From a virus, in IMG/VR virus record IMGVR_UViG_3300022934_000059, positions 1 to 38,162 of that record: DNA of 38,162 nucleotides. One strand, given 5' to 3'. This document shows positions 14,205-33,115 of the stretch, piece after piece (positions within the stretch are counted from its first letter, which is position 1; the number at the start of each line of letters is the position of its first letter). A program made the translations under genes and the position numbers. The notes below the pieces were generated by a model. It was given only the letters and a program-made list of their open reading frames with translations. It made no database searches and was not told where the DNA came from.

Positions 14205-14267
14205 GGTTCGTGAGGCCCAAAGCAATTAAAAAGGCGAACCACTACATTTTGATTAGGGGAATTGGTC
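14205..14267. other. Intergenic gap before portal, weak hairpin and AT-rich tract
   Basis: One of the larger non-coding gaps (63 bp). GGTTC at 14205-14209 can pair with GAACC at 14236-14240, and GCC (14215-14217) with GGC (14233-14235), leaving an unpaired bulge. CAATTAAAAAGG lies in the loop and could be a weak archaeal TATA-like element about 35 bp before the portal start. Either reading is tentative. Confidence 0.25.
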
Positions 14268-15899
14268 ATGGCTGAAAAAAGGCGATTCTCCTTCACCAAT
14301 CTCTTCCGTAGGACGACCCCTACACCGGCTGACCGAAAGGTGTTCAATGTCGGAATTCAAGAGCGTGAAAACTCTTACATGATGACGGCTCCATTGGTTT
14401 ACAATGTCGTCAATCAGTCCGTTATCGTGCGAACCTGTATTACACAACTCAAGCAGGAGATTTTTCGCCGGGGCTATGTTTGGGAAAAGGCCTACGAGTC
14501 CCGTTGTAATTCTTGTCAAAAGACTCACAAGATGCCCGTAGAGGTTTGTGCTAGATGTGATTCTCCGGATTTGAAGAAGCCCGACCCAAAGCAATTGGAA
14601 TATGCCGAGAACTTCATTGAAGGATATGTGAACAAGTCCGAACAGAAATTCATTGATGTGTTCAAGGAGTTGGAAGATGACCTCAACATTATGGACGACG
14701 CCTACATTGTTCTCGTCAAGGAATACTACTTGGACGGCAATGGAAAAATCCGTATGCATCGCATCAAAGAGTTGTTCCGTGGCGACCCCGTGACCATGAG
14801 CATTTACGCTGATGAGGTTGGGATTAGAGGAACCAAAGGCTTCACTTGTATCAATCACCGTTCGTTCTTAGCCCAAGAACCTCATGAGCCATGTCAAGAG
14901 TGCCGTGGTCCTGTTTATCCGATTCATTATGTCAACAGAGCAAACGGTGAGGAGCAGTATTTCATTGAGGGAGAGGTTCTTCACTTTAGCAAATACAGTC
15001 CTAGTAGACTCTATGGACACTCGCCCATTCTTACATTGTTCAACAACATCATGACGCTCATTGCTATGGAGAATTATGTCAATTCATCTTACACCAAGAG
15101 TCGTATGCCGAGAGGCTTACTTGCCGTTCAAACCCGTAACATGGATTCTATGGCGGCGTTTTGGAGAGGTGTCAAAGAGCGTATGGAACAAGACCCTCAC
15201 TACATTCCTGTTATGGGCATTGAAGCAGAAAACGGTAAGGGTTCTGTTGAGTGGATTAAGTTCATGGATAGCCTCAAAGAAATGGAGTATGTCGCAGTTA
15301 AGGATGATTTGCGTGACCGTATCTCTGCCTTCTATGGCGTAAGTAAGGTCTTCATGGCCGACAATACAACGAGTGGTGGTTTGAACAACGAGGGTATGCA
15401 AATTCTTGTGACGAATCGTGCCGTGCAAATGGCGCAGAATGTTTACAACAACTATGTCTTCCCCTTCTTGACGAAGCAATTCGGTATTACTGATTGGGTC
15501 TTGAAACTGCCTCCAAGTGAAGAGGAGGATGAAGTTGCAGTTTTGCGAAAGCGTGAGTTAGAAGTCAACATTGCCGCCTCTACCAAGAATCTTGGATTTG
15601 AAGTTGACATGGACGAAGACGGTAACTTTACTTTCTCTAAGCCGGAACCCAAAGAAGAGGAAACTTCGGAAGAGGGGCCGATTGAAACCAATCCAATGGC
15701 TGGTTCCAACATTGACCAAAGAGAATTAGCAGAGGCTCAAATGGCTTCTTTGGAAGAAGGTTCTAAGCCCCAAGAGAACCCGCCAGCCACAAGGAATAAA
15801 GCGAGGATGAGCGTAGGACCAGATAAGAGGCTTACAGGATTGCCGCAAGATGCTGGTAATCAAAATGTAGATAGGAGAAGCGAAGGGAGAGTGAGATGA
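14268..15899 (+). CDS. Portal protein with two zinc-ribbon insertions
   Basis: 543 aa from ATG 14268 (TAGGGGA upstream; TTG 14262 less likely). Identified by position after TerL and by portal-like sequence: the segment around EVLHFSKYSPSRLYGHSPIL, a long helix, and DDLRDRISAFYGVSKVFMAD followed by GGLNNEGMQILVTNRAV. Unusually, residues 80-97 carry CNSC...CARC, and residues 194-212 carry CINH...CQEC, each a plausible four-ligand zinc site. The C-terminal 100 residues are acidic and probably disordered. The portal forms the dodecameric DNA channel. It lacks the MSW tag. Confidence 0.85.
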   Translation: MAEKRRFSFTNLFRRTTPTPADRKVFNVGIQERENSYMMTAPLVYNVVNQSVIVRTCITQLKQEIFRRGYVWEKAYESRCNSCQKTHKMPVEVCARCDSPDLKKPDPKQLEYAENFIEGYVNKSEQKFIDVFKELEDDLNIMDDAYIVLVKEYYLDGNGKIRMHRIKELFRGDPVTMSIYADEVGIRGTKGFTCINHRSFLAQEPHEPCQECRGPVYPIHYVNRANGEEQYFIEGEVLHFSKYSPSRLYGHSPILTLFNNIMTLIAMENYVNSSYTKSRMPRGLLAVQTRNMDSMAAFWRGVKERMEQDPHYIPVMGIEAENGKGSVEWIKFMDSLKEMEYVAVKDDLRDRISAFYGVSKVFMADNTTSGGLNNEGMQILVTNRAVQMAQNVYNNYVFPFLTKQFGITDWVLKLPPSEEEDEVAVLRKRELEVNIAASTKNLGFEVDMDEDGNFTFSKPEPKEEETSEEGPIETNPMAGSNIDQRELAEAQMASLEEGSKPQENPPATRNKARMSVGPDKRLTGLPQDAGNQNVDRRSEGRVR

Positions 15900-18070: not shown

Positions 18071-18418
18071 ATGTGGGAAAGAATTCTCAAAGAAGATGTG
18101 CGAAAGGAATACAGTCCGGTGCTTGACACCTTGGATGAAAAGAAGCGAAAGAAACTCAAGAAGACTCTGCAATCCACAGAGCCTACAGAGTATTTCGGAC
18201 AAGACTTTACTCGCCTTGGTGAGTTGATTGACATGCTCAAGGAATTAGAGTTTGTCAAATCGGACGAAAAACTCAACAAGAGATTCAAGTCCATTGACGA
18301 AAGGAACATTGATATGTTGGCCCTCTCTAGCAAACTCCGTAAGGAATACGAGTTGTTGTATCGCCAACTTCGGGAAATCGTTTATCCAAAGAGAAAGGGG
18401 GATTTGAGAGATGAGTGA
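18071..18418 (+). CDS. Tagged helical protein
   Basis: 115 aa starting MWERILKEDVRK, the tag without Ser2. The rest is a charged helical protein with probable coiled coil (LGELIDMLKELEFVKSDEKL; LSSKLRKEYELLYRQLREIV). It has no Cys and no catalytic motif. It starts 2 bp after the 560-aa tagged gene, preceded by GAGGAGG, and its stop region overlaps the next gene by 8 bp. Confidence 0.7.
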   Translation: MWERILKEDVRKEYSPVLDTLDEKKRKKLKKTLQSTEPTEYFGQDFTRLGELIDMLKELEFVKSDEKLNKRFKSIDERNIDMLALSSKLRKEYELLYRQLREIVYPKRKGDLRDE

Positions 18419-18635
18419 TACACAAGAAGAAATGTTGGGCGTGTTGAAGGCATTGGTTGAGCGTATTCAGTCGCTTGAGAAGACCGTGTATCATCAAGAC
18501 AATTTGTTGATGAAGTCCGGATTTGTTGTTGCTCAAACTCCTGTTCCTTCTATGACTGCATCTACTATGCCTACAGATGATATGATTCACAAAATGTCGT
18601 GGGACGACATTGAAAGATTTGTGAACGGACGGTGA
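18411..18635 (+). CDS. Small coiled-coil protein with C-terminal MSW motif
   Basis: 74 aa. Residues 1-35 are a coiled coil (EEMLGVLKALVERIQSLEKT). The middle is a Pro/Thr/Ser-rich linker. Residues 62-74 read MSWDDIERFVNGR and end the protein. This aligns closely with the last 14 residues of the protease/scaffold protein encoded 2.8 kb downstream. Here the tag is C-terminal rather than N-terminal. A small scaffold or adaptor that shares the protease's C-terminal docking element is a reasonable hypothesis. Confidence 0.72.
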   Translation: MSDTQEEMLGVLKALVERIQSLEKTVYHQDNLLMKSGFVVAQTPVPSMTASTMPTDDMIHKMSWDDIERFVNGR

Positions 18636-18876: not shown

Positions 18877-21414
18877 ATGGCCTCTGCTGGTTTGATGGTG
18901 GGCAAGGTCAAAGCGCCTGCCTCGGATGAAATTCTTTCTCTCTTTGAGAAGGTCCGAGTTGCTTACCTTTCAGCCAAAGAAGACAAGAAAGAATATGGCG
19001 GTCGTTGGAGAAACGCCTTAGAAGAAATTGAAGAAGCCTTTGACTCTCTTTCCATTCTAGGGAAGGAATTGAAGAATTTCTTGGACGAAAGGCATCTTAA
19101 CGACGATGATGCAAAAGACCCGGAAAGCACAACTGCTCGTATTATTTACGAGGCTATCAAAGATATGCGCTTTGAATCCGACAAGGTGCAAGACCCATTC
19201 GCAGACCGTTTTAAGGGCGATGTGTTGGAAGCATTACTCAGCGATATTGGCATGATGGTGAAATTTATTCACTATGCTATTCGTTCCGATGATAAAGCAT
19301 TATCGGGGAAGTTCTACGAATCTAAAGAGTTGCAACCGGATGAGATTACGAATGGTTTAGATGGTCTTGACTTAGAAGTTGATGATGTTCCTCTTTACAT
19401 CATTGAACATTATGGCGACGATAAAGATTCTAGAAAAGTAGAATCTCAATACAAGAAAGCCAAAGCAATTCTTGATGAAATGATTCTTTCCGAATCTTCC
19501 GAAGAGGAATTAGAAGAATTGGAAGAAGTGGATTTGCATAAGGCAGAAAAATCCGAAAAGGAAAAGGCCGTAAGTCAATTCATTATTCCAAACAAGCCGA
19601 TGTATCGTATCTTTGATATTGACGACATGAAGGAACTTAAAGGATTCAGCGGAGAATATGTTGTTCAAGAAAAATACGATGGTATGCGTATTCAAATTCA
19701 TAAGATTGACAACAAGGTTCAAATTTTCTCCTACAACAAGAAAGACATTACAGAGAAGTGTTCTTCTCAAGTCAAGGAGTTGCAAAAGAAATCCTACGGT
19801 GATTGCATCCTTGATGCAGAACTGATTTTGTTTGATGGGGACAAGGCCCTCCATCGTGCCGATACAGTAGCCCATGTTTTCCAAAATAAATACAAAGAGG
19901 CTAGACTCCGAGCGCATGTTTTTGATATTATGCGCCATGAGGCTCAAGACCTTACGGATACGCCTCTGCGTGACCGAATCAACATTCTCTTCAACAATTA
20001 TGCCGTTAAGTCGTCTTCGGATTTGGTCTTCCCTTCAAAGAAGGATACGAGGATTGCTGACTCCTTGAAGGACATTGACGATTACGCCAAGGAAATTATG
20101 GACATGCCTACGGCAGAAGGCGTGGTCATTAAGGACATTGAATCTACTTATTTCATCGGGACAAAGAAGAATCCAAAGTGGATTAAGTGGAAGAAGTTTG
20201 TTGATTTGGACATGTTGGTTTTGGATAAGAAATCAACAAAGTCGGGCTTGTATTCCTACTCTCTTGGCGCTGGTCCCGTTGCTGATGAAGACGAGGGCAA
20301 GCACATTGTAGAATACGAAGGCCGACGATACATGAATGTTGGAAAGGCACTTAACACCAAGATTAAGGCAGATGTTGGACAAATCATTCGTGTGAAGGTT
20401 GACGAGGTTAGAGAAGATAAAGGAAGATTTACCCTCTATTCGGCTAAGGTTGTAGAGGTTCCCGAAGTGGAATTACCGGATAAGATTGTCACTTTACAGA
20501 TGCTTTCGGGAGATACTAAGCCTTCTATCAAATACAAGGCATTGTCCTTGAAGAAAGGCATTGGTATTACTGATGGTATTCATGGAACTGCAATGATTAT
20601 TGCAAAGAGTATGGATGGGTTTACTATTTACGGTTTCCAAGAGAATAATCTCATGGCTAAGAATGCTCTCCAAGACTTGGACATGTGGAAACAAGAAGCG
20701 GAGCAGATGATGAAAACAATGCAGAGTAATGTTCGCTCCGCCGTTATTCGTTATGTCAAGGACGCCACTTCTAGAAATAAAGAAGTGACAGTCAAAGAGT
20801 TGGATGAATTCTTATCCCGCAACTATGCTAATGAGTATTCTAGTTTGTTTGAGAACAAGCAAGACTTCCTTAAATTCCTTAAGGGGCAAAAAGAATTGAG
20901 TCATTTCTTGGATGCTAGTGAATACATTACTGTGCGGGGCAACAAAGTCTTTGTTGATGAGAGTGTTTTACAAAAAGAAGAGGAGCCGTCTAAATTCAAG
21001 GTGTATCTTCGTAAAGATGGCAACTTGAATTTCTCTGTTCGTCATAAAGGTGAGAATCTTATGTGGACGATTGACTTACAGACCGACGATGACATTTTCT
21101 CTTTGTTCGGTAAAGCAGTCAAGTATCCTGCTGAGATTTCCGAACAACAAGATACTCATGACCTCTTAGATGAAGGCGATGTTACCGTTGGCGTCCAACG
21201 GCATGGCTACCACGAATACATCTTGAATGGAAACAAGTTTGAAACCAAACTACACTTCCGAGTTGTAGACATGAAGGGAGAGAAAACTTGGATTGCTTGG
21301 ACGGGCTATGAGCAAGACCCTGTTGACCCCGATACAGATGAAGGGGTATGGAATATCTATAATGATAAATTCAAAAGTATAAAATTGGATAAAAATACGG
21401 ATAAGGTTAAATAG
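18877..21414 (+). CDS. ATP-dependent DNA ligase with large N- and C-terminal extensions
   Basis: 845 aa. The nucleotidyltransferase core begins near residue 235: motif I EKYDGMR with K266 as the adenylated lysine, motif III LDAELILFD near 310-318, motif IV AEGVVIKD near 413-420 and motif V WIKWKKF near 437-443. An OB-fold (VGQIIRVKVDEVRED, RFTLYSAKVVEV) follows to about 535. The KYDGMRIQIHK sequence is archaeal-like. Residues 1-230 are a helical acidic region unlike normal ligase DNA-binding domains. The C-terminal 150 residues (LRKDGNLNFSVRHKG, VGVQRHGYHEYILNG) faintly resemble a LigD-type phosphoesterase fold, unproven. It seals nicks in DNA. Location among capsid genes is unusual. Confidence 0.9.
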   Translation: MASAGLMVGKVKAPASDEILSLFEKVRVAYLSAKEDKKEYGGRWRNALEEIEEAFDSLSILGKELKNFLDERHLNDDDAKDPESTTARIIYEAIKDMRFESDKVQDPFADRFKGDVLEALLSDIGMMVKFIHYAIRSDDKALSGKFYESKELQPDEITNGLDGLDLEVDDVPLYIIEHYGDDKDSRKVESQYKKAKAILDEMILSESSEEELEELEEVDLHKAEKSEKEKAVSQFIIPNKPMYRIFDIDDMKELKGFSGEYVVQEKYDGMRIQIHKIDNKVQIFSYNKKDITEKCSSQVKELQKKSYGDCILDAELILFDGDKALHRADTVAHVFQNKYKEARLRAHVFDIMRHEAQDLTDTPLRDRINILFNNYAVKSSSDLVFPSKKDTRIADSLKDIDDYAKEIMDMPTAEGVVIKDIESTYFIGTKKNPKWIKWKKFVDLDMLVLDKKSTKSGLYSYSLGAGPVADEDEGKHIVEYEGRRYMNVGKALNTKIKADVGQIIRVKVDEVREDKGRFTLYSAKVVEVPEVELPDKIVTLQMLSGDTKPSIKYKALSLKKGIGITDGIHGTAMIIAKSMDGFTIYGFQENNLMAKNALQDLDMWKQEAEQMMKTMQSNVRSAVIRYVKDATSRNKEVTVKELDEFLSRNYANEYSSLFENKQDFLKFLKGQKELSHFLDASEYITVRGNKVFVDESVLQKEEEPSKFKVYLRKDGNLNFSVRHKGENLMWTIDLQTDDDIFSLFGKAVKYPAEISEQQDTHDLLDEGDVTVGVQRHGYHEYILNGNKFETKLHFRVVDMKGEKTWIAWTGYEQDPVDPDTDEGVWNIYNDKFKSIKLDKNTDKVK
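21373..21384 (+). promoter_or_regulatory. Candidate archaeal promoter for protease/capsid genes
   Basis: AAAAGTATAAAA: a purine-rich stretch that could act as a BRE, followed by TATAAAA at 21378-21384. It lies in the AT-rich 3' end of the ligase gene, about 60 bp before the protease start, which would give a leader of about 30-40 nt. The capsid genes that follow should need strong expression. Evidence is sequence resemblance only. Confidence 0.35.
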
Positions 21415-21442
21415 TCAATTAGAGAACGAGGAGTTGAGAAGA

Positions 21443-22612
21443 ATGTCTTCCATCGTTAAGGCTGACACTCATGAGGATTTCAAAATCATCAAGAGCGACA
21501 AACTAATGATTGGGGGATATGCTTCTATTGAAATGGTGGACAAGCAAAACGACCTCATTACTTTAGAGTCATTGAAAGAAGCCGTTAAAAAATTCATGGA
21601 GCAGAAGAGTTTTCGGAATGTAATGACCAATCACTCAAATGTTCAAGTCGGAGAAGTAATTGACAGTTACAGAGATACAAGCGGGAGGCTATGGAAAACA
21701 GAAGTGGATGATGTTGGCTTCTTCGTAGTGATTAAACTCCGTGATGATATTGAAAAAGCAAAAGAAATTGGACGAGGCATTCGCAAAGGAACATTGAGGT
21801 CTTTTAGCATAGGAGGACAGGCGCTACAGAAAGTGAAAAAGCGAAGTGAAGAGTTGGGCGAATACAACGAGATTAGCAAACTTGAACTTCATGAAGTGAC
21901 CATCTGTGAAAAAGGAATCAACCCCGAAGCGAAATTTGACATTTTGAAACAACAAAAGGTGAAAGACATGACGAAATTGGAAAAAGCATTGGCGGAATTG
22001 GACACTCTCTTAGCAGAAGTGAACACTCTCCGTAAGGAAGAAGAAGAACCCGCTATGGAAAACATGGCCGGAGAAGAAGAAGAAATGATGGATATTGAGT
22101 CCTACGAGCGAGCAGAAAAGGGCGCAAAGCCTACTGTTGACGGTGGCTCTTTGGAAACCGGCGAGCCAGCAGACCTTGTTGTGGTGTCCGGTGGCCGACC
22201 AACCGGTTCCTCTCAAGCCGCAGAGGAAGGCAAGGTTAGCAAAGCCTTTGACAACAACGAGTTCGGAACGCTCAACCTCTCTAACGAGAACATTGAGAAG
22301 GCTTACGCACAATTCCGTGCCGAGCAGATGGAAGAGTTGGCTCTCAAGAACCTTGAGTCCACCTTCGCTAAGAGATTTGAGGCTGAGATGGCTAACCGTG
22401 AAGAAATGGTTGCTAAGTCGGAATACGATGCTCAGTCCGAGATTGCTTCTCTCCGAGAGCAATTCTCTTCGCTCCGCAAGTCGTTAGAGAACGGCGCACA
22501 AGAAATTCGCAAGGCTAACGAAGCCGCCCAAGAAACCACGGCCCTTTCCTTGGATGAGGTCGCTGAAATGTCTTGGAGCGACATTCACAAGATGGCCAGC
22601 GGAAACTATTGA
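21443..22612 (+). CDS. Prohead protease/scaffold fusion with C-terminal MSW motif
   Basis: 389 aa from ATG 21443 (GAGGAG nine bases upstream; TTG 21434 less likely). Residues 1-175 are a phage prohead protease of the XkdF/U35 type: IGGYASIEMVDKQNDLI, MTNHSNVQVG (H64, likely catalytic), IKLRDDIEKAKEI and GTLRSFSIGGQ (S122, likely nucleophile), then KLELHEVTICEKGINPEA. Residues 180-375 are acidic and helical, like a fused delta/scaffold domain. The last 14 residues, MSWSDIHKMASGNY, match the window-wide tag. It would direct capsid assembly and then digest the scaffold. It sits just upstream of the capsid gene, the usual order. Confidence 0.9.
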   Translation: MSSIVKADTHEDFKIIKSDKLMIGGYASIEMVDKQNDLITLESLKEAVKKFMEQKSFRNVMTNHSNVQVGEVIDSYRDTSGRLWKTEVDDVGFFVVIKLRDDIEKAKEIGRGIRKGTLRSFSIGGQALQKVKKRSEELGEYNEISKLELHEVTICEKGINPEAKFDILKQQKVKDMTKLEKALAELDTLLAEVNTLRKEEEEPAMENMAGEEEEMMDIESYERAEKGAKPTVDGGSLETGEPADLVVVSGGRPTGSSQAAEEGKVSKAFDNNEFGTLNLSNENIEKAYAQFRAEQMEELALKNLESTFAKRFEAEMANREEMVAKSEYDAQSEIASLREQFSSLRKSLENGAQEIRKANEAAQETTALSLDEVAEMSWSDIHKMASGNY

Positions 22613-22623
22613 GGTGATGAAAA

Positions 22624-23955
22624 ATGGGTTACATTAACACGATTAGAGATTTAGAAGCAGCAACTTACGGACTACCAAACTTCGGTGGCAACTCCTTGCT
22701 TAAGCAAGCAGGTGTTGTGCAGGGCCTTCACACGGCTCACGACACCGCCGAAGCAGGAGCAAGCGGTGTTTCCGCTATTGGCTCCACCGCAGGCATGTAT
22801 AATGTCGTCTACGGACAAAAGGTTTGGTCTATGCTGAACCGTGAAGTCAACGCCCTCGCTATGCTCTCCAAGAGAGCCTACACTTCCAGCGGTTGGCGAA
22901 TCCTCAAGAGTCGTCCCTTCGGTGGTAGTGGCGCTACTCTTACCTTGCAAAGCGACGGCACGGGCGGTGGCATTGGTTCCGACGACCCACAAGCAGACGA
23001 GATTGGTGGTGTTCCTGAGAACGGTGGCCTCTCTACTGCCGCTGACGGTCTTGGTAGCATGGCTCCAACCTACGCTCAACTCTTCATGAGTCCAAAGACT
23101 GTGGCTCATCAGTTTGACATTTCTGAACTTGCTATGGAAATGGCTCAAATTGACGATGGCCTCGGTGACATTCGGGCTATCATCCGTGAAGACATGGGTA
23201 AGGCTCACGCAGAAGCACAAAACAAGATGCTGGTTATGCCTCTTGAGTTCTACGGTGAAACCTCTGCTCTTGGTAACATTGAGCGAAACTACACCTCGCT
23301 CTTGAAGATTGTTTCAAGCCGAGATGAAATTCTTGCTTTGGACAATGGCGTTCTCGCTACTGATGTTGCTTCCGCTACCAACAACCTCGGTAAAATCTAC
23401 GGCGAGGAGCGATTTACTGCCGCTTCTTTCCTTGACTCCGAAGTTGACTCCGGAACCTACGCCGCTTCTTCGGTTCGTGCTTTGACGCTGACCAAGATTA
23501 ACGACATGATTCGCCGTCTGCGAGTCGCTGGTGGTTCGCCTAAGGTTATTCTTACGGGCTACGATACCATCCAAGCAATCGCTGACTTGCTCCAAGCACA
23601 AGAGCGTTTCATGGACCGCAAGGAAGTTATTCCTACCGTGAACGGCGTTCGTGGTATCAAGGGTCAAGAAGTTGGTTTCCGTGTGGCTACCTACTACGAC
23701 ATTCCTCTCATCCCTGTGAAGGAAATGACCTCCACCACCAACTCGGCTGACACCGGTATTAGCGACATGCTTTTCCTTGACACGGACCATCTTTGGCTCC
23801 AAGTCATGAAGCCTACGCAATACTTTGAAGACGGTATTTCCAACGGGAACCCATTCGGTGTGGGTCGCCTTGGGAACCAAGCCCTTTACCGCACCATTGC
23901 GGAAACGGGTTGTTCCTTCTTCTTGGGCCAAGGCAAGATTACGAACATCGCTTGA
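22624..23955 (+). CDS. Major capsid protein, HK97-fold
   Basis: 443 aa, SD GAGGTGAT. Identified by position after the protease, size and sequence: an N-terminal region, then VWSMLNREVNALAMLSKRA, a Gly-rich loop (SDGTGGGIGSDDP) and GSMAPTYAQLFMSPKTVAHQFDIS, which matches the transition to the spine-helix and P-domain of HK97 capsids. The C-terminal part (VILTGYDTIQAIADLLQAQE, MFLDTDHLWLQVMKPTQYFEDG) fits the A-domain and closing strands. Codons are GC-richer and more uniform than in neighbours, consistent with high expression. It forms the icosahedral shell. It lacks the tag. Confidence 0.92.
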   Translation: MGYINTIRDLEAATYGLPNFGGNSLLKQAGVVQGLHTAHDTAEAGASGVSAIGSTAGMYNVVYGQKVWSMLNREVNALAMLSKRAYTSSGWRILKSRPFGGSGATLTLQSDGTGGGIGSDDPQADEIGGVPENGGLSTAADGLGSMAPTYAQLFMSPKTVAHQFDISELAMEMAQIDDGLGDIRAIIREDMGKAHAEAQNKMLVMPLEFYGETSALGNIERNYTSLLKIVSSRDEILALDNGVLATDVASATNNLGKIYGEERFTAASFLDSEVDSGTYAASSVRALTLTKINDMIRRLRVAGGSPKVILTGYDTIQAIADLLQAQERFMDRKEVIPTVNGVRGIKGQEVGFRVATYYDIPLIPVKEMTSTTNSADTGISDMLFLDTDHLWLQVMKPTQYFEDGISNGNPFGVGRLGNQALYRTIAETGCSFFLGQGKITNIA

Positions 23956-31123: not shown

Positions 31124-31147
31124 GGTTTGTTTGTAGGAAGTGGGATT

Positions 31148-33115
31148 ATGGCAAGACCAAATATATTTTTAGGAAGCGGTGCATCGGTAACTTTTGTTCC
31201 CGAAGTGGATATTTATTTGAAACCTGATTCATTGGATGCAGATAAAAGCACTTTGACTATTGACACGGATTTTACGAATCGTTTTGATTTGGTTAATGAC
31301 CTGTATGTGGGTTGTGTCCTTGAATTCTATGACAACGGGACACTTACAACCACCCATAGAATTACTTCTAACACCGGAAGGAAGATTACCTTTCATCCAG
31401 CGCAAACAATTACCTTGGATACAACGAACGACTACTACAGACTCAAGGGATACGGAGCGCCATGTCCCGCCAAAAAGGTTCTAGGGGGTTCAAATGTTCA
31501 CACGGATGAAGTGACGCACTTCACCTTTGCTAGCGATACTAAGTCCGATTATTTCGGGGATTGGATTTACTTCTATGAGATTCAAACCGATGATGCGGGG
31601 ACGGAAAAAGCAGTCGTGGTTTGGTGGGACACTACAGGAAGCGATACCGTTCCAAGTCATGGAGTCACAGGTTCTCCCACCGTTGTAGATGTTGACATTT
31701 CCGATTCCGGGCTTACCACTCAAGAAGAATACATTGCGGCTACTGTTGCGGCTATCAATGCAGAAAGCGTGGATTTAACCGCTAGCAGAAGCAATAACAT
31801 TTTGATTATCACCAATACTTATGGTGGCCCTACTACAGATGCAAACTCTAGCAATGCAAGCCATATTACACATGAAGTAGTTACGCAAGGTTCTACTGCT
31901 ATTTCTTCTTCTACTGCCAAAAAACTCAACTCGGACAATTGGCTAGGCATTGTTGAGTCTTTGACTTTCCCTAGTGTTGATGTTGAATTCAAACAACAGA
32001 ACCTCTTTGTTGGTGGTAGTCGTAACTATACCTACCAATACAAGGGGATTGAAACGGCAGGAAACGCCAGCATTGGTGTTGTTGCAAATCATGGTGCTTG
32101 GCTTTACTATTTCTTCGGTAAGTGTTCTTCTATCAGCGCCACTCTTCTTTCTTCTACAAATCCGACTAGTGATTTCCAAGGAGCGGCTGATGGTGAAGAC
32201 AAGTTTTACTTGAACGGTAGTTCCGTTACGGAAACAGGACCTTTGTTTTACCGTAGTATTGACCGAGATATGACCCCTCCTGTTCTTAGAGGACAAGATA
32301 CCTATACGGACCTACAACAATTGGACCCCCCTACTATTGACGCTGACGGCCACATTGAGAAGGCTATCACTTACACCTTTACAGAACAAGAAGGTGACGA
32401 CTTGCCTTCTTTCGCTCTTGAACAGGTCTTCTCTAAGTTGCCAAGTTCAAACACTTACAGAACCAGCACGGACAACGACAACGAAGACACCAACTTCGTT
32501 CTTATTGCTACAGGGAACAGAGTCAACACTCTTACCATGACTGCTAACGAGAATGAAGAACTGAAAATGACGATGGATTGTATGCCTCGCAAGGTTCACA
32601 ACTTGGAAAAGACCGAATCTTATGAGGCTAGAAGAGGCGTCACGAACGAAACCGAATTTATCAACTACTATAGTGAAGATGCTTGTTTGGAACCATTCTT
32701 CTTCTCTAGTGGTTCCATCAGCATGTTTGGTCAAGACTTTATGAGAATTACAAACTTTACCTTGACCATGAACAATACTTTGACGGATAAGAGATTCATT
32801 GGTATTGGTAGTAAGACCGTAAAGGACGCTATTCCTGCTCAAAGAACTTACGAGTTGACCTTCTCCGCTCTCGTTACTGACGATATGTTGTTTAATGAAT
32901 TGAAAAATCAACACGAAACTACAGGCACGGTGATTGACCTTATCTTTGACAAGGGTAGTGAAGAACAAATCCGATTGAAGTTTGATGATTATTTCTTGAC
33001 GACAAACACTTGGCCAATCCCCGAAGACAAAGGGGCCGTGACCGTTGAGGCTACTATTATCCCACGCTCGTTGAATTCTTGCACAGTCAAGACTCATTGG
33101 ATTTTGCAGGGGTGA
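31148..33115 (+). CDS. Major tail tube protein (long form)
   Basis: 655 aa from ATG 31148, before which no strong SD is visible. N-terminal GSGASVTFVPEVDIYLK and the C-terminal part (FGQDFMRITNFTLTMNNTL, DKRFIGIGSKTVKDAIPAQR, YELTFSALVTDDMLFNEL) read like the beta-barrel tube fold, with typical closing strands (DYFLTTNTWPIPEDKGAVT). At 655 aa it is several times the usual 150-300 aa, so one or more extra domains lie in the middle, e.g. the segment with EEYIAATVAAINAESVDLTA. Polymerises as rings around the tape measure. Position before the frameshifted chaperone supports the call. Confidence 0.7.
   Translation: MARPNIFLGSGASVTFVPEVDIYLKPDSLDADKSTLTIDTDFTNRFDLVNDLYVGCVLEFYDNGTLTTTHRITSNTGRKITFHPAQTITLDTTNDYYRLKGYGAPCPAKKVLGGSNVHTDEVTHFTFASDTKSDYFGDWIYFYEIQTDDAGTEKAVVVWWDTTGSDTVPSHGVTGSPTVVDVDISDSGLTTQEEYIAATVAAINAESVDLTASRSNNILIITNTYGGPTTDANSSNASHITHEVVTQGSTAISSSTAKKLNSDNWLGIVESLTFPSVDVEFKQQNLFVGGSRNYTYQYKGIETAGNASIGVVANHGAWLYYFFGKCSSISATLLSSTNPTSDFQGAADGEDKFYLNGSSVTETGPLFYRSIDRDMTPPVLRGQDTYTDLQQLDPPTIDADGHIEKAITYTFTEQEGDDLPSFALEQVFSKLPSSNTYRTSTDNDNEDTNFVLIATGNRVNTLTMTANENEELKMTMDCMPRKVHNLEKTESYEARRGVTNETEFINYYSEDACLEPFFFSSGSISMFGQDFMRITNFTLTMNNTLTDKRFIGIGSKTVKDAIPAQRTYELTFSALVTDDMLFNELKNQHETTGTVIDLIFDKGSEEQIRLKFDDYFLTTNTWPIPEDKGAVTVEATIIPRSLNSCTVKTHWILQG

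Follow-up and report, generated by a model that had tools for sequence, protein, structure and literature searches.

A conserved C-terminal motif common to the head protease and a 74-residue coiled-coil protein of magrovirus-like viruses, and a predicted scaffold nested in the protease gene

Introduction

Two genes in the head module of the viral DNA analyzed here (referred to as the window, meaning the whole stretch of 38,162 nucleotides) end in closely similar peptides, one of them encoding the head maturation protease and the other a coiled-coil protein of only 74 residues. This raises the question of why two such proteins should finish alike, and of what a tail common to both would bind during head assembly.

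Few archaeal viruses of the surface ocean are as abundant as the magroviruses. In the accessible text of the published description, they are roughly 90-kb marine tailed viruses that encode a B-family DNA polymerase and an ATP-dependent ligase and are related to the Druskaviridae (PMC12999244), and the accessible text of further accounts likewise deals with magroviruses of marine Poseidoniales (PMC10160649, PMC10768690, PMC8651126). The uncultured viruses studied here match this description as magrovirus-like, tailed viruses of marine Poseidoniales, the window being a 38-kb fragment: their long relatives measure ~90 kb, a B-family DNA polymerase is encoded by all six of those relatives (86–96 kb), an ATP-dependent ligase is present, and the nearest named relatives of the portal, protease, and capsid protein are Druskaviridae (haloviruses HVTV-1 and HCTV-1). 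A scaffold gene of magroviruses is not described in the accessible text of any of the four accounts (PMC12999244, PMC10160649, PMC10768690, PMC8651126). The protease was also found on three contigs (L281, L282, and L283), all in one MAG labeled Maricaulis sp. IN14, and these contigs are probably mis-binned viral DNA.

The head module and the two carriers of the motif

Relatives were collected by protease searches in IMG/VR, which gave 561, and by additional scans using the small protein, a motif DNA pattern, two divergent proteases, and the HVTV-1 protease as queries. All head genes discussed here lie on the + strand of the window. The module starts with the portal gene (14262..15899; Pfam Phage_portal; PHROG portal, E 1.5e-65), which is followed by the gene of the 74-aa protein (18411..18635), the gene of a protein of 845 aa that contains an ATP-dependent DNA ligase domain (18877..21414; PF01068, E 3.4e-29), the gene of an S78 head maturation protease that continues into a scaffold-like domain at its C-terminus (21434..22612; 392 aa in full), and the gene of the presumed docking partner of the tail, an HK97-fold major capsid protein whose N-terminal arm is short (22624..23955; PHROG major head protein, E 1.9e-23). 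The protease was recognized by Pfam PF04586 (E 5.7e-10), whose match spans residues 23–179, and by PHROG head maturation protease. An earlier note on this DNA had rightly placed the 74-aa gene between portal and protease; the 845-aa ligase-domain ORF also lies between the 74-aa gene and the protease, a position that it holds within the head module in 182/182 loci, and its product may be a virion protein. No marine locus that reaches 4.5 kb or more upstream of the protease lacks the small gene. Elsewhere in the window (31127–33115), a 662-aa protein has a Phage_tube_2 tail-tube domain only at residues 339–598.

The 74-aa protein ends in MSWDDIERFVNGR, encoded from the ATG at 18594 to the stop ending at 18635 (18594..18635, +), and the protease ends in MSWSDIHKMASGNY, also quoted as LDEVAEMSWSDIHKMASGNY (22568..22612 with its stop, +), which would also be the end of the nested scaffold predicted below. 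The earlier note had aligned the last 13 residues of the small protein with the protease tail, and this observation was confirmed, with its coordinates (18594–18635) proving exact. When the two tails are aligned over 13 residues without gaps, KMSWDDIERFVNG / EMSWSDIHKMASG is the highest-scoring pair, with a BLOSUM62 score of 40, which ranks first among 22,791 ORF-tail pairs in the window (the runner-up scored 35) and was reached by 0/20,000 shuffles. A profile-profile comparison of the small-protein and protease families gave an E value of 7e-11, with the signal coming from the C-terminal motif.

Conservation of the motif

Among all fetched loci, Phi-x-W-x-x-[IVL] stands at the end of 243/243 complete distinct marine proteases and of 212/212 distinct small proteins, and the ends of both families carry Phi-x-W-x-[D/E]-I or a close variant. 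This comparison of homologous C-termini, by which the earlier note had proposed to check its claim, found no small protein that has the coil without the motif. The motif as first written, M-S-W-x-D-I followed by a basic residue, a hydrophobic residue, and a final G-x, stood in its core and fell at its last two positions, as relatives of the small protein end in KME, AGGQ, and other ways; the common core is better given as Phi-x-W-x-[D/E]-I, then [H/E/D/N]-[K/R]-[M/F/L/I]-[V/A]. We hold that the motif does not reflect chance because it is universal in both families, in clades only about 45% identical; in the most divergent clade used as a query, the proteases are about 45–57% identical to the others.

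Position by position, the 144 and 139 distinct DNA tails of the two proteins read M(L/V)-[D/S/E/N]-W-x-[D/E]-I-[H/E/D/N]-K-[M/L/F/I]-[V/A], and the Trp is invariant in both sets. Synonymous codons are used freely in these tails at the motif D, I, H, K, and V, and selection therefore acts on the peptide and not on the DNA. The tail distances of the two proteins correlate beyond the distance of their protease domains (partial Mantel r 0.22, 0/2000 permutations, with phylogeny roughly controlled), a weak signal of the kind that a common binding partner might cause.

When a degenerate DNA pattern for W-x-D-I-H-K-M was run on viral contigs, and carriers were counted over all loci gathered by then, the motif ORFs among the matches listed comprised at least 140 proteases, at least 116 small proteins, and five others (four unrelated and one truncated ORF). 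No third carrier of the motif appeared among these listed matches from viral contigs or in the window, and at equal stringency the motif is absent from the capsid protein. It is also absent from the haloviral relatives HVTV-1 and HCTV-1 and from relatives in Methanomassiliicoccales viruses; judging from the two haloviruses, members of this protease family can therefore do without the motif.

A predicted scaffold nested in the protease gene

The capsid protein lacks an N-terminal scaffold domain, as seen when the N-terminal arms were compared, and the scaffold must therefore come in trans. The C-terminal half of the protease gene likely supplies the main scaffold. An internal ATG (Met179, at 21968 in the window) stands exactly where the protease domain ends and the coiled-coil half begins, and it is preceded by the Shine-Dalgarno sequence (SD) AGGTGA (21957..21962, +). 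Translation from this codon to the shared stop is predicted to yield, in frame, a scaffold of 214 aa (21968..22612, +) with the same C-terminus as the protease.

A start codon is kept at all 153 distinct aligned junctions (ATG 147, TTG 5, and GTG 1). Where the Met is lost, Leu or Val takes its place, and the codons used, TTG or GTG, can also start translation. An SD of at least six bases was found at 75/153 junctions, whereas 0/484 of the remaining in-frame ATGs in these protease domains had one; in a wider set an SD of at least four bases was found at 221/229 junctions vs. 45/673 control ATGs. The wider count took, within a short interval, whichever start codon scored best, and it includes one entry (L380) that is a mis-assigned upstream TTG; the count of 153 is the cleaner test because its position is fixed by the LEKAL block that follows. 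The SD is kept despite changes in the residues that it encodes (KVKN, KGDT, KEDK, and VGGE) and across reading frames (AAG GTG A, AAA GGT GAT, AAG GAG GAC, and GTT GGA GGT GAA). It is from this conserved start codon and SD at a domain boundary that we predict the nested scaffold.

An AlphaFold model of the whole protease was confident only in the coil at residues 284–367, a single long helix (pLDDT about 80–87), with a poor model of the protease domain, and PDB profile searches with both families retrieved no viral scaffold or protease and no meaningful sequence relatives. Between the protease domain and the scaffold coil lie repeats rich in acidic residues and Met (DEKMMDEK-like), whose length varies greatly, at about 22040–22130 in the window and in relatives such as L139 and L056. 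The haloviral proteases (L082:13874–15844 and L083:14431–16446) have a Met in a VKNM context near the same boundary, with AGTGAAAAACATG in HVTV-1 and an SD that is weak or absent; perhaps this Met is an older form of the nested start.

The 74-residue protein

Conservation along the 74-aa ORF (18411..18635) divides the protein into a coiled coil (residues about 8–30), a block LLMKSGFVV..P.P (32–46), a variable linker (49–61), and the tail (62–72). Heptad-spaced residues of the coil are M8, L12, L15, I19, L22, and V26. Averaged over each part, the entropy is 1.10 bits for the coil, 0.77 for the block, 2.35 for the linker, which is the most variable stretch of the protein, and 0.89 for the motif. 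The block (18504–18548 in the window) is nearly invariant as LLMK[SA]GxVVxxxPxP, and since it is conserved like the motif it must have a function of its own. A likeness between LE..VY..DNLLMKSGFVV of the small protein and LEA.TYG..GN.LLKQAGVV of the capsid N-terminal arm (P 0.014 by profile comparison) was set aside as chance, as unrelated protease segments twice scored equally. The protein has no match in PHROG or Pfam.

The earlier note had described a coiled coil, a flexible linker, and a docking peptide, and had called the whole a small scaffold protein. The layout is borne out by the conservation profile, the block at 32–46 had been overlooked, and docking on the capsid is a matter of interpretation. 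As to the name, the main scaffold is likely the C-terminal half of the protease gene with its internal start, and the 74-aa protein is best read either as an accessory scaffold or as an internal head protein, one that borrows the presumed docking tail of the scaffold.

Proposed function of the tail

We consider it probable that the tail is a capsid-docking helix common to the protease, the nested scaffold, and the 74-aa accessory or internal head protein. While the prohead assembles, the tail, folded as a short amphipathic helix with an N-cap, would attach to the major capsid protein on its inner face. It would have three carriers, namely the protease-scaffold (392 aa), the predicted nested scaffold (~214 aa), and, encoded apart from these, the coiled-coil protein of 74 aa. 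The protease would thus enter the prohead via the same tail by which the scaffold organizes the shell, and the 74-aa protein would join the core through the same contact while oligomerizing through its coil, its LLMK[SA]GxVV block probably tying another head component to the shell.

The residues of the tail, with D/S/E/N at position 2, D/E at position 5, and hydrophobic residues at positions 1 and 6, suggest a helix N-cap with a hydrophobic staple, and the invariant Trp, which capping does not explain, is likely a contact residue. The tails of both proteins sit behind variable linkers that are probably flexible. In both AlphaFold models the tail appears as two short helices of low confidence, and a tail-capsid fusion model, for which natural in-frame read-through fusions served as paired rows, gave a pLDDT of 50.8, with the tail mostly below 50. 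A cleavage site that would release the tail was not identified.

Other explanations of the common tail were weighed against capsid docking. Chance likeness, or a functionless remnant of a duplicated gene end, might be invoked for a motif of 13 residues, but it is virtually nil in our estimate and already refuted by the universality of the motif in 212 + 243 distinct sequences, the invariant Trp, the free synonymous change, and the 0/20,000 shuffles. It is rather unlikely that the tail docks instead on the portal, or on another protein of an initiator complex, where protease, scaffold, and 74-aa protein would gather and so start assembly. The small gene does sit in the module that runs from portal to capsid protein, the portal is conserved, and the portal, protease, and Nu3 of lambda form an initiator complex (PMC3224144); however, none of the evidence is specific to the portal, and a scaffold must touch the capsid protein, which herpesvirus scaffolds usually contact through their C-terminus (PMC12474303).

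That the tails bind one another, alike or mixed, as an assembly contact inside the scaffold core would agree with the amphipathic character of the helix and with the coiled coils upstream of the tail in both proteins. We nevertheless regard it as quite unlikely, as the tails differ at their ends and in some clades at position 7 while Phi-x-W-x-[DE]-I is kept, which is better accounted for by a third, common partner. The presence of the motif on the protease, an enzyme expected to process the core, is compatible with a sequence common to enzyme and substrate, by which the protease would find and remove the scaffold and the 74-aa protein in trans. Such a recognition or cleavage signal is very unlikely in our view: the motif lies at the extreme C-terminus, a capped amphipathic helix with an invariant Trp resembles a docking helix and not a scissile site, and the capsid protein, compared at equal stringency, does not carry it.

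If capsid docking is the correct reading, then the scaffold of magroviruses has been identified together with the contact by which it probably meets the shell and with another conserved protein that relies on this contact, and the scaffold would have been invisible to ordinary annotation because it is hidden inside the protease gene. The tail would then be a short C-terminal tag of natural origin with which cargo could be brought into an HK97-type shell. More tentatively, and with less confidence than in docking itself, we suggest that a single portable docking helix at the C-terminus may serve magroviruses as a general tag for prohead entry, placed on the protease, on the nested scaffold, and on a coiled-coil adaptor that tethers a further component (e.g., portal-associated or internal proteins) to the shell.

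Comparison with known systems

Among the nearest named relatives, HVTV-1 and HCTV-1 (Druskaviridae) have a similar gene order and an ATG in the VKNM context near the same junction, whereas their protease lacks the W-x-D-I tail and no homolog of the 74-aa protein is detectable in them. The scaffold of HK97/D3-type phages is a delta domain fused to the capsid protein (PMC12749128). An HK97-fold capsid protein and a head protease in the portal module are features in common with those phages; the capsid protein here has a short N-terminal arm instead, with the scaffold supplied in trans.

The targeting sequence of T4 is N-terminal and is removed by the prohead protease. Head proteins of T4 and P1 are directed into the prohead by a short peptide at one end, which is also N-terminal in P1 DarB (PMC9024508). 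The present motif is similarly a terminal peptide on several head proteins, here two gene products, or three with the predicted nested one, but it is C-terminal in both proteins and occurs on the protease itself. If the reading as a general tag holds, it would combine a C-terminal counterpart of the T4 targeting sequence with the protease/scaffold plan of herpesviruses in archaeal viruses.

In lambda, the protease gene contains an in-frame nested scaffold gene, so that gpC and Nu3 have a common C-terminus, and we know of no separate small coiled-coil protein of lambda that carries the C-terminus of gpC/Nu3. The same arrangement of a scaffold nested in frame in the protease gene is predicted here. 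Nu3 is a scaffold that interacts with C and E (PMC3224144). The last 25 residues or so are common to UL26 and the nested UL26.5 of herpesviruses and bind the capsid protein (PMC12474303). UL26/UL26.5 resembles the present gene in its N-terminal protease and C-terminal scaffold, the latter being also made alone from an intragenic start (in our case a predicted one), and differs from it in that the protease there is assemblin, in contrast to the S78-type match here, and in that UL26.5 is an overlapping gene starting inside UL26, whereas an SD-led internal translation start is predicted here. A small, separately encoded third protein bearing this tail is not known to us from herpesviruses. PDB profile searches, PHROG, and Pfam detected no sequence relationship to the herpesvirus or lambda scaffolds. 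If our prediction is correct, the gene plan of herpesviruses and lambda is present in archaeal tailed viruses, and we regard this variant of the protease/scaffold plan with a shared C-terminus, in which a separate small protein is an added carrier, as new.
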